A stretch of DNA of 64,000 nt, from NCBI GenBank assembly GCA_030684395.1, contig JAUXTT010000029.1, positions 1-64,000 of the forward strand, given 5' to 3'. The notes beneath the pieces were generated by a model that worked only from the letters and a program-made list of their open reading frames with translations, had not been told where the DNA came from and did no database searches. Both the position numbers and the translations under genes were made by a program. This document shows, one piece after another, positions 41,898 through 43,790 of this stretch. The stretch is from Bacteroidota bacterium. GTDB lineage: Bacteria > Bacteroidota > Bacteroidia > B-17B0 > Aurantibacillaceae. Every line of letters starts with the position of its first letter. Position 1 is the stretch's first letter.

Positions 41898-41980
41898 CCC
41901 GCAGATCACACAGATTAGCGCAGAAATAAATGGCAAGCTAAAACAATAAAAAATTTGCGCAGATCAGCGAAACCTGCGGG
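41898..41980. repeat. CGCAGAT-type inverted repeat before phhB
   Basis: CCCGCAG (41898-41904) pairs with CTGCGGG (41974-41980), with further GCGCAGAT-type pieces inside. It lies in the 5' region of phhB; a spurious TTG start within it would extend phhB by 13 residues. Confidence 0.6.
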
Positions 41981-41993
41981 CAACCAATTACCG

Positions 41994-42275
41994 ATGACTG
42001 CACTAAGTACCCAAGAAATAAAAAACAAATTGGTTTCATTTCCTAACTGGAAACATGAAGAGAATTGTATTATAAGAGAACTTACTTTTAAAAACTTCAG
42101 TGAAAACTTTGCCTTTATGACAAGAGTGGCAATGATTGCTGAAACGCTTAACCACCATCCGAATTGGAGCGGAGGGTATAAAAACCTTACTATTAAACTT
42201 TCTACACACGATGCAGATGGGGTAAGCGATAAGGATTTTGAGTTTGCAGGGAGAATTGAGAAGATGTTACAATAG
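41994..42275 (+). CDS. phhB: Pterin-4a-carbinolamine dehydratase
   Basis: PhhB (PCD) dehydrates the carbinolamine formed from the pterin cofactor by phenylalanine hydroxylase, recycling it. The 93 residues contain the family core SENFAFMTRVAMIAETLNHH, then PNWSGGYKNLTIKLSTHDA, with the catalytic His-His-Pro. The ATG at 41994 gives the usual length; the longer reading from TTG 41955 runs into a repeat. phhA, the partner, lies 291 nt downstream behind a palindrome and an attenuator. Confidence 0.94.
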   Translation: MTALSTQEIKNKLVSFPNWKHEENCIIRELTFKNFSENFAFMTRVAMIAETLNHHPNWSGGYKNLTIKLSTHDADGVSDKDFEFAGRIEKMLQ

Positions 42276-42280
42276 ACCAA

Positions 42281-42352
42281 TGTCAGTTCGAGCGCAGTCG
42301 AGACGACTATGAACGCGTGTCCCAAATGTTCTCGACTACGCTCGAACTGACA
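42281..42352. repeat. Long palindrome of the TGTCAGTTCGAG type
   Basis: Arms 42281-42303 and 42330-42352 match as inverted repeats at 22 of 23 positions around a 26-nt loop. The arms start TGTCAGTTCGAGCG and end CGCTCGAACTGACA. The same type is widespread between genes in flavobacteria. It may terminate phhB transcription. Confidence 0.75.
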
Positions 42353-42377: not shown

Positions 42378-42407
42378 TTTGATTTTCAAAATTAAGCTCC
42401 ACATTTG
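42378..42407 (+). promoter_or_regulatory. Putative promoter of the phhA leader
   Basis: TTTG (42378-42381) is followed after 18 nt by CACATTTG (42400-42407), 7 of 8 matches to TAnnTTTG. The predicted start of transcription falls within a few nt of the leader ORF ATG at 42415. Confidence 0.5.
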
Positions 42408-42414
42408 CTTCGCA

Positions 42415-42489
42415 ATGAATTTTCACGCACATACATCTTATTATTATAGCCCGATCAAAACGTCGGGTATGTATGGTCATTGTATGTAA
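42415..42489 (+). CDS. Leader peptide with three consecutive Tyr codons (phhA attenuator)
   Basis: A 24-codon ORF starts ATG AAT TTT and contains TAT TAT TAT at codons 9-11 (42439-42447), plus a fourth TAT at codon 20. The peptide begins MNFHAHTSYYYSPI and stops at TAA 42487-42489. The Tyr run ends exactly where pairing segment 1 of the downstream structure begins. Its position before a Phe hydroxylase gene, which makes Tyr, fits a ribosome-stalling sensor of Tyr-tRNA. A short -7-like promoter sits directly upstream. Confidence 0.7.
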   Translation: MNFHAHTSYYYSPIKTSGMYGHCM

Positions 42490-42545
42490 TCAATAAACAA
42501 TTAAATCCATTCATTATATCGCCCGGCATTAGTCGGGCTTTTTTT
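42448..42545 (+). promoter_or_regulatory. Attenuator: four mutually exclusive pairing segments before phhA
   Basis: Segment 1 is AGCCCGA (42448-42454), segment 2 GTCGGGT (42462-42468), segment 3 GCCCGGC (42521-42527) and segment 4 TCGGGCT (42533-42539). Pairs 1:2 and 3:4 form together, and 3:4 runs into seven T, an intrinsic terminator. Alternatively 2:3 pairs over seven positions (two G-U), which blocks the terminator. This is the classical attenuation layout seen in biosynthetic operons with leader peptides. Ribosome stalling at the Tyr codons just before segment 1 would free segment 2 and allow read-through into phhA. Confidence 0.7.
42521..42545 (+). terminator. Intrinsic terminator of the phhA leader
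   Basis: GCCCG (42521-42525) pairs with CGGGC (42534-42538), a sixth G-U pair is possible, and TTTTTTT follows (42539-42545). It ends 21 nt before the phhA ATG. Confidence 0.85.
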
Positions 42546-42566
42546 ATTTACCAAATCCAAAACAAC

Positions 42567-43304
42567 ATGAACAAACCATTAACGCAAATTTACAGCAATT
42601 ACACGCAAGAAGATTTTAAGGTATGGAAGGTCCTGTTTGACCGGCAACTGAAAAATTTAGAGCATTATGTGTCGCACGATTTTTTGGAAGCTTTGGAGAA
42701 AGTAAAATTTACTCCGAACAGGATTCCCTATTTTAAAGAAGTAAATTCTATTCTACTAGAGCAAACAGGTTGGTCATTGCATACTGTTCCCTGCATCAGT
42801 CCACAGTGCGAATTTTTCAGGTTGCTCTCGCAGGAAAAATTCACAGCAACCTGCTGGATCCGTAAGAAAGAACAATTAGATTACCTGGAAGAACCGGATA
42901 TGTTCCACGATGTGTTTGCGCATACACCACTTTTGAGTAACCCCACTTACTGCGAGTTCTTCAAAAGCATTGGTGATCTTGCCCTAAAACATATTCACGA
43001 TCCTATAGTTATACAAAAATTTGGACGCTTGTACTGGTTTACCATTGAGTTTGGCATGATCTACAAGAACAATGAAATCAATGCCTTTGGAGCAGGAGTA
43101 ATTTCTTCCGCAGGAGAAACAAAACATGCATTGAGTGTTCGTTCCAAAAAAATTGATTTTAATATTGAGAAAATATTTAATACCAATTTCAGAGCGGATA
43201 TCCTACAGGAAAACTATTTTGTGATTGATTCTTTTGATCAACTGTTAAAATCGGTGCCTGAGATAGAACAAAAAATTGAGCTACTGGCAGAAATAAATAC
43301 GTGA
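42567..43304 (+). CDS. phhA: Phenylalanine 4-monooxygenase
   Basis: PhhA converts L-Phe to L-Tyr with tetrahydrobiopterin and non-haem iron. From ATG 42567 it has 245 residues, the usual size of bacterial monomeric PAH. The iron ligands are H114 and H119 in DMFHDVFAHTPLL and E161 in FTIEFGMIY. RIPYFKEVNSIL and GWSLHTVPCISPQCEFF are conserved substrate and pterin regions. The longer reading from 42480 is rejected because it would cross the attenuator terminator. Part of its 3' end is duplicated at 43692-43790. Confidence 0.95.
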   Translation: MNKPLTQIYSNYTQEDFKVWKVLFDRQLKNLEHYVSHDFLEALEKVKFTPNRIPYFKEVNSILLEQTGWSLHTVPCISPQCEFFRLLSQEKFTATCWIRKKEQLDYLEEPDMFHDVFAHTPLLSNPTYCEFFKSIGDLALKHIHDPIVIQKFGRLYWFTIEFGMIYKNNEINAFGAGVISSAGETKHALSVRSKKIDFNIEKIFNTNFRADILQENYFVIDSFDQLLKSVPEIEQKIELLAEINT

Positions 43305-43331: not shown

Positions 43332-43682
43332 ATGGAAACTTACACCAAATCAGATGAAGATAAAACAGTTGCTATTTTATCTTATATAACCCTTATCGGG
43401 TTTATTATTGCACTTGTAATGTATGGGAATAATAAAACAAAATTGGGAGCATATCACCTGCGTCAGGCATTAGGATTTTTGTGTGCAGGGTTTGCATTTT
43501 CGTTATGCCAGTTTGTGCTTGTTTTTATCCCTATTGTAGGATGGCTTATTATTATGGCAATAGGCGTATTTATGCTTGTATGCTGGATCATGGGTTTGAT
43601 ATCCGCAATTAACGGCGAAATGAAACCTATGCCTTTGATTGGTGAGCCCATTCAAAACATTTTCAAGAATACGTTTAATTAG
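43332..43682 (+). CDS. DUF4870/Tic20-like small membrane protein
   Basis: The 116-residue protein has three to four hydrophobic segments: about 13-28 (VAILSYITLIGFIIALVMYG), 44-62, 65-85 and 85-95. A conserved motif GAYHLRQALGF lies between the first two. It opens with TKSDEDKTVAILSY. This fits the DUF4870 or Tic20-like family of small membrane proteins with no agreed function. It sits between phhA and a duplicated scrap of phhA, so it may have been brought in by the same rearrangement. Confidence 0.82.
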   Translation: METYTKSDEDKTVAILSYITLIGFIIALVMYGNNKTKLGAYHLRQALGFLCAGFAFSLCQFVLVFIPIVGWLIIMAIGVFMLVCWIMGLISAINGEMKPMPLIGEPIQNIFKNTFN

Positions 43683-43691
43683 CATTCATGT

Positions 43692-43790
43692 AATACCGAT
43701 TTCAGAACGGATATCCTACAGGAAAACTATTTTGTGATTGATTCCGTTGATCATCTATTGGATGCTGTACCTGAAATTGAAAAGAATTGA
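43692..43790 (+). pseudogene. Duplicated fragment of the phhA 3' end
   Basis: Read in frame from 43692 this gives NTDFRTDILQENYFVIDS, then VDHLLDAVPEIEKN and a stop at 43788-43790. The parent phhA has NTNFRADILQENYFVIDS, then FDQLLKSVPEIEQK from about 43179. The nucleotide match is strong (for example ATATCCTACAGGAAAACTAT in both). There is no start codon and the upstream part of the gene is absent. It is a partial duplication left after phhA, separated by the small membrane protein gene. Confidence 0.9.

Follow-up and report, generated by a model that had tools for sequence, protein, structure and literature searches.

In the 64,000-nucleotide stretch of Bacteroidota DNA analysed here (the window), the gene for phenylalanine 4-hydroxylase, phhA, is preceded by a leader that, judging from its sequence and that of its relatives, very probably works as a ribosome-mediated transcription attenuator, which would tie the expression of phhA to how much charged tRNA(Tyr) is available. 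The 152 bases 5' of phhA were read directly and folded, and the features considered below, all on the + strand, are the following:

41955-42275, +, phhB-like gene for pterin-4a-carbinolamine dehydratase (PF01329, E 7.9e-29), given as its open frame
42378-42407, +, promoter-like element: TTTG at 42378-42381, an 18-nt spacer and CACATTTG at 42400-42407, read directly
42415-42489, +, leader ORF of 24 codons, MNFHAHTSYYYSPIKTSGMYGHCM, with the stop TAA at 42487-42489, read directly
42439-42447, +, proposed regulatory Tyr codons TAT TAT TAT within the leader ORF, read directly
42448-42454, +, segment 1, directly after the Tyr codons, pairing with segment 2 in the host genome
42462-42468, +, segment 2, the putative antiterminator arm, with segment 1 or 3 as pairing partner
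42521-42538, +, terminator hairpin: segment 3 (42521-42527), loop (42528-42531) and segment 4 (42532-42538)
42539-42545, +, seven-T tract of the terminator, from direct reading and terminator prediction
42567-43304, +, phhA, phenylalanine 4-hydroxylase of 245 aa (PF00351, E 4.2e-43), the proposed regulated gene

Direct reading bears out most of the anatomy claimed by an earlier, sequence-only reading of this DNA: a 24-codon ORF with TAT TAT TAT directly before the pairing segments, a promoter-like TTTG-N18-CACATTTG ending 7 nt 5' of the leader ATG, and seven T after hairpin 3:4, with 21 nt separating them from the phhA ATG (42567). Its coordinates for segments 1 to 3 stand, and those for segment 4, given as 42533-42539, are one base off. 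Segment 3 of the host leader is able to pair with segment 2 or with segment 4; the hairpin 3:4 has seven pairs, six of them G-C, immediately followed by the T tract, and was recovered by independent terminator detection as well. Folding, which had been proposed as a check, showed the leader to be more stable than 200 of 200 dinucleotide shuffles (z -3.86).

The same arrangement recurs in relatives of the host. Taking 115 distinct phhA loci from the host family, its class and named genomes, we searched the 350 nt before phhA for an ORF of 10-45 codons starting with ATG and having at least three Tyr in six codons, with a strict terminator no more than 130 nt downstream of it. Both elements are present in 41 of the 115 Bacteroidota upstream regions, against none in 4600 dinucleotide shuffles or in 241 regions that precede other ORFs of these loci; a chance origin of the combination was rejected on these counts. 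When the run residue is varied in this test, Tyr gives 41 cases, His 13, Gly 6 and each other residue at most 5, Tyr being by far the commonest residue; the conservation check on the Tyr codon run came out in its favour. Allowing one mismatch in the terminator raises the number of leaders to 46. Leader-bearing genera include Marivirga, Roseivirga, Hymenobacter, Solirubrum and Echinicola, the last with two species other than Echinicola vietnamensis, while Pontibacter was added by eye. The Tyr codons in the leaders of these relatives are 158 TAT and 56 TAC, a mixture indicating that the amino acid is what is conserved.

The stability of the host leader (the z score given above) could also be expected of translational control or of a ribosome-free RNA switch, in which a ligand-binding RNA or a protein would read the leader and the peptide would be unneeded; translation of the leader ORF is moreover a prediction. 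We consider such a device exceedingly improbable, given that no Rfam family fits, that the leaders diverge widely from species to species except in the Tyr run and the hairpin arms, which is unlike aptamers, and that TAT and TAC interchange within an intact frame. Rfam scans for a riboswitch or T-box yielded no credible candidate in the window stretch, where microRNA and sRNA models gave the best weak matches, all far below gathering score, and none at the leaders of seven related loci.

A further question is which amino acid a translated leader would sense. The tRNAs for Tyr and His are both queuosine tRNAs. In Cyclobacteriaceae, a number of phhA leaders contain no less His than Tyr, with sequences such as MNPTPRTYVHHSYHLLR or, in Anditalea, MKKKIYLNISHHHHSVQG, and a terminator is retained in most of them (the loci are L036, L039, L044-L047, L052, L053, L057, L062, L066, L069, L075, L077, L079, L080, L122 and L124); a pure Tyr sensor would not account for their His richness. 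The attenuator could be real and yet respond to a wider signal, for instance the queuosine state of NAY-decoding tRNAs or a combination of Tyr and His, and this would accord with the HHSYH-type runs of Cyclobacteriaceae leaders, one of them with HHHH, and with the alternation of Tyr and His in those of Roseivirga. This reading seems unlikely to us, because the run consists of Tyr alone in most leaders, including that of the host, whose His codons do not adjoin the Tyr run.

When 395 genomes were scanned with a sequence pattern for further targets of Tyr leaders, the host gave a single match, the phhA leader itself, and in 8 genomes the match lies before phhA; the other matches are parts of long reading frames, frames that lack a usual start codon, or a few short Tyr-rich frames preceding other genes (L144, L146). 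The pattern is narrow, and further targets may exist. In a PhhA tree with 114 rows, the presence of the Tyr leader requires 14 changes, versus 37.5 with shuffled labels, and the leader occurs on deep branches at both sides of the midpoint root, while 46 of the 114 phhA genes have no recognised leader. The simplest account of this distribution would be an old origin of the leader followed by repeated loss.

The central element of the proposed switch is the competition between pairings 2:3 and 3:4, and here covariation provides the evidence. For each leader, pairing was computed between the stretch that follows the Tyr codons and the 5' arm of the terminator of that leader; the energies sum to -571 kcal/mol for the native combinations, as compared with -473 when arms are swapped between species and -393 for shuffled regions, and 0 of 20000 permutations paired as well as the native set. 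The result holds among 25 representatives sharing less than 65% PhhA identity (-319.6 native versus -262.9 swapped, sd 11.3). Pair types vary between species at most positions of helix 2:3, as in GGAAUGG/CCGUUCC, GAAACGG/CCGUUUC, GAACAGG/CCUGUUC and GGAUUAGG/CCUAAUCC. The compensatory changes that had been proposed as a check are therefore found in helix 2:3, and its competition with 3:4 is kept. Segment 2 mostly starts 20-28 nt past the first Tyr codon, roughly where the front of a stalled ribosome would be, and the leader ORF stops inside segment 2 or shortly past it. Given the usual ribosome footprint, segment 2 would be free while a ribosome is stalled on the Tyr codons and would be covered once it moves on.

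How the terminator would be avoided is a matter of timing. When stalled states are modelled for the time before segment 4 exists, segment 3 finds an upstream partner in 44 of 46 leaders, versus 24.8 expected from shuffles. Once segment 4 is included, the equilibrium optimum of the stalled state, in folds of the isolated RNA, still holds the terminator in 42 of 46, and hence the switch must rely on the order of folding, that is, on kinetics. The third helix of the claimed scheme, 1:2, which as a protecting helix would allow termination on an untranslated leader, fared differently: it is found in the host leader (p 0.015), and its general conservation is not supported, p 0.05 being reached in just 3 of the 25 representatives. 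It follows that the conserved device consists of the Tyr codons, segment 2 and the terminator 3:4.

Promoter sequences place the probable start of the transcript next to the leader ORF. The Bacteroidota consensus TAnnTTTG begins with T, where the host box has C; 18 of 46 leaders have it in strict form with its end 3-7 nt 5' of the leader ATG, mostly at 4-6 nt, as against 4 of 392 other ORFs, and this strict form occurs between the terminator and phhA in 0 of 46. In Flavobacterium psychrophilum the promoter box lies at -12 to -5 and leaderless mRNAs amount to just 5.5% (PMC9723704). With the box at that distance, transcription of the phhA leader would start within about 3 bases of the ATG, and its mRNA would be leaderless or almost so.

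The gene upstream of the leader deserves attention in this respect. The phhB-like gene probably has its true start further inside the open frame listed above, and it is context, lying outside the switch. Between it and the leader there is a near-perfect inverted repeat at 42281-42352 (TGTCAGTTCGAGCGCAGTCGAGA and its mirror), with only these two arms in the window, possibly a repeat element or else the terminator of phhB. Since phhB precedes phhA in the same orientation, and intergenic terminators are common, hairpin 3:4 could be thought to end the phhB transcript, with phhA having its own promoter after the hairpin and the Tyr ORF being incidental. We find this highly unlikely. The Tyr-run ORF and terminator recur before phhA despite quite different upstream genes, at a frequency that neither the shuffles nor the control upstream regions approach; the complementarity of segments 2 and 3 is kept with compensatory change; the strict box, missing between terminator and phhA in the 46 leaders, often ends shortly before the leader ATG; and the inverted repeat could itself terminate phhB.

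The attenuator that we favour would then operate as follows. RNA polymerase would start just 5' of the leader ATG, and the leader would be translated while it is being made. With plentiful Tyr-tRNA, the ribosome would pass the Tyr codons and move onto or past segment 2; with this segment covered, segment 3 would pair with segment 4 and transcription would stop before phhA. With scarce Tyr-tRNA, the ribosome would stall on the Tyr codons, leaving segment 2 free to pair with segment 3 before segment 4 exists, and the polymerase would read into phhA, the expression of which would then provide Tyr from Phe.

What purpose would such a sensor serve in front of phhA, when bacterial phenylalanine hydroxylase is commonly annotated as the first step of Phe breakdown? 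The protein itself has the catalytic domain expected of the enzyme, the Biopterin_H match (PF00351) spanning residues 11-237, and the motif EPDMFHD is invariant among 13 aligned PhhA sequences. The host genome has one full copy of phhA; a fragment at 43674-43787, at the end of a DUF4870 gene, is 68% identical to residues 198-236 in the C-terminal part of PhhA, contains an internal stop and is probably the relic of a duplicated phhA. Also near the phh genes, on the - strand, is a gene for tryptophan 2,3-dioxygenase (PF03301, 38345-39394). In locus L012 a cobalamin riboswitch (RF00174, 95 bits; 1148-1369, - strand of the locus) lies downstream of phhA on the same strand. About two dozen members of the class have a different open frame of approximately 580-630 residues, matched by the PhhA profile in two weak pieces, which apparently represents another family of aromatic hydroxylases.

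The answer may lie in the supply of tyrosine. In the host genome, which is 98.9% complete, no match was found to prephenate dehydrogenase/TyrA (PF02153) or to prephenate dehydratase (PF00800), families that are present in all 14 control genomes. PhhA is consequently the only recognisable route to Tyr and, as the host is apparently unable to make Phe, Tyr would derive from acquired Phe. Most simply read, the host would, like animals, take up Phe and convert it to Tyr; a non-homologous dehydratase is possible. The host has chorismate synthase and also HPPD, the latter leaving room for a catabolic role of PhhA. Within the class, a strong TyrA match is absent in 28 of the 37 members with short PhhA. 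No class-wide anticorrelation between phhA and TyrA was found, strong TyrA being present in 9 of 37 phhA-positive and 41 of 210 phhA-negative genomes, for TyrA is missing from most class members with or without phhA. Gene order is informative too: the gene before phhA encodes a DAHP synthase in several Cyclobacteriaceae and is trpA in a Spirosoma MAG (one DAHP synthase and TrpA were confirmed against Pfam, other neighbours being judged by sequence likeness). From fitness data, Price and co-workers proposed a role of PAH in making Tyr for Echinicola vietnamensis (PMC7311316). The suggestion of the sequence-only reading that PhhA is used to make Tyr finds support in these fitness data, in the DAHP synthase neighbours and in the lack of detectable TyrA and prephenate dehydratase in the host.

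If true, a Tyr-responsive attenuator across much of Bacteroidota would mean that selection treats PhhA as a source of tyrosine, and the leader would be a sequence mark from which biosynthetic use of PhhA could be read in genomes. This bears on whether the many Bacteroidota lacking TyrA truly are tyrosine auxotrophs. It would also offer a natural sensor of Tyr-tRNA in a phylum which initiates translation largely without Shine-Dalgarno sequences, and in which leader-peptide attenuation has hardly been studied. A more far-reaching synthesis, which we put forward tentatively, is that of an old, phylum-wide Tyr attenuator on a leaderless transcript, without a conserved protecting helix and with the ribosome at segment 2 setting the default; PhhA would serve, as in animals, as the tyrosine synthase throughout a lineage of bacteria lacking prephenate dehydrogenase, and Cyclobacteriaceae would have shifted to joint sensing of Tyr and His.

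Among known systems, the Tyr T-box riboswitches of Bacillota are those in which Tyr-tRNA charging decides termination, as it would in the phhA leader. A T-box, however, recognises uncharged tRNA by direct binding and lacks a leader ORF such as that before phhA, and the Rfam scans of the window stretch and of the seven related loci gave no T-box match. The enterobacterial attenuators of trp, his, pheA, leu, thr and ilv have a short ORF rich in codons for the product of the pathway. As in these systems, the product-codon-rich ORF before phhA is followed by mutually exclusive antiterminator and terminator hairpins ahead of the structural gene; they differ in that the phhA leader has Tyr codons and targets phenylalanine hydroxylase, usually described as catabolic, that the protecting helix 1:2 is not generally conserved among phhA leaders, and that the promoter box puts the start codon at, or a few bases from, the transcript start. 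Save for general conservation of that helix, the phhA leader appears to possess the defining features of a leader-peptide attenuator that can be examined in sequence: a short ORF with a Tyr run, an intrinsic terminator between this ORF and phhA, and an antiterminator excluding the terminator, with compensatory change in 25 divergent representatives.

The principle of leader-peptide attenuation of amino acid operons is set out in PMC1183508, and in F. psychrophilum it has been reported for amino acid biosynthesis operons, with structured 5' regions that include those of pheA and hisG (PMC9723704). These attenuators belong to the same phylum and follow the same principle as proposed for the phhA leader; the main text of that report does not mention a hydroxylase. 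The work on E. vietnamensis PAH concerns the same enzyme family and proposes the same biosynthetic role, and was built on fitness data and pathway gaps, its account of PAH not describing regulation (PMC7311316). In keeping with the earlier statement that no described Tyr attenuator for phhA was known, none was found in the text of the open-access papers searched; the work of Lopatovskaya, Seliverstov and Lyubetsky 2010 (doi 10.1134/S0026893310010164, cited in PMC4833913) may be a precursor. The Tyr attenuator on phhA would then be, with provisional novelty, an addition to the known class of attenuators.
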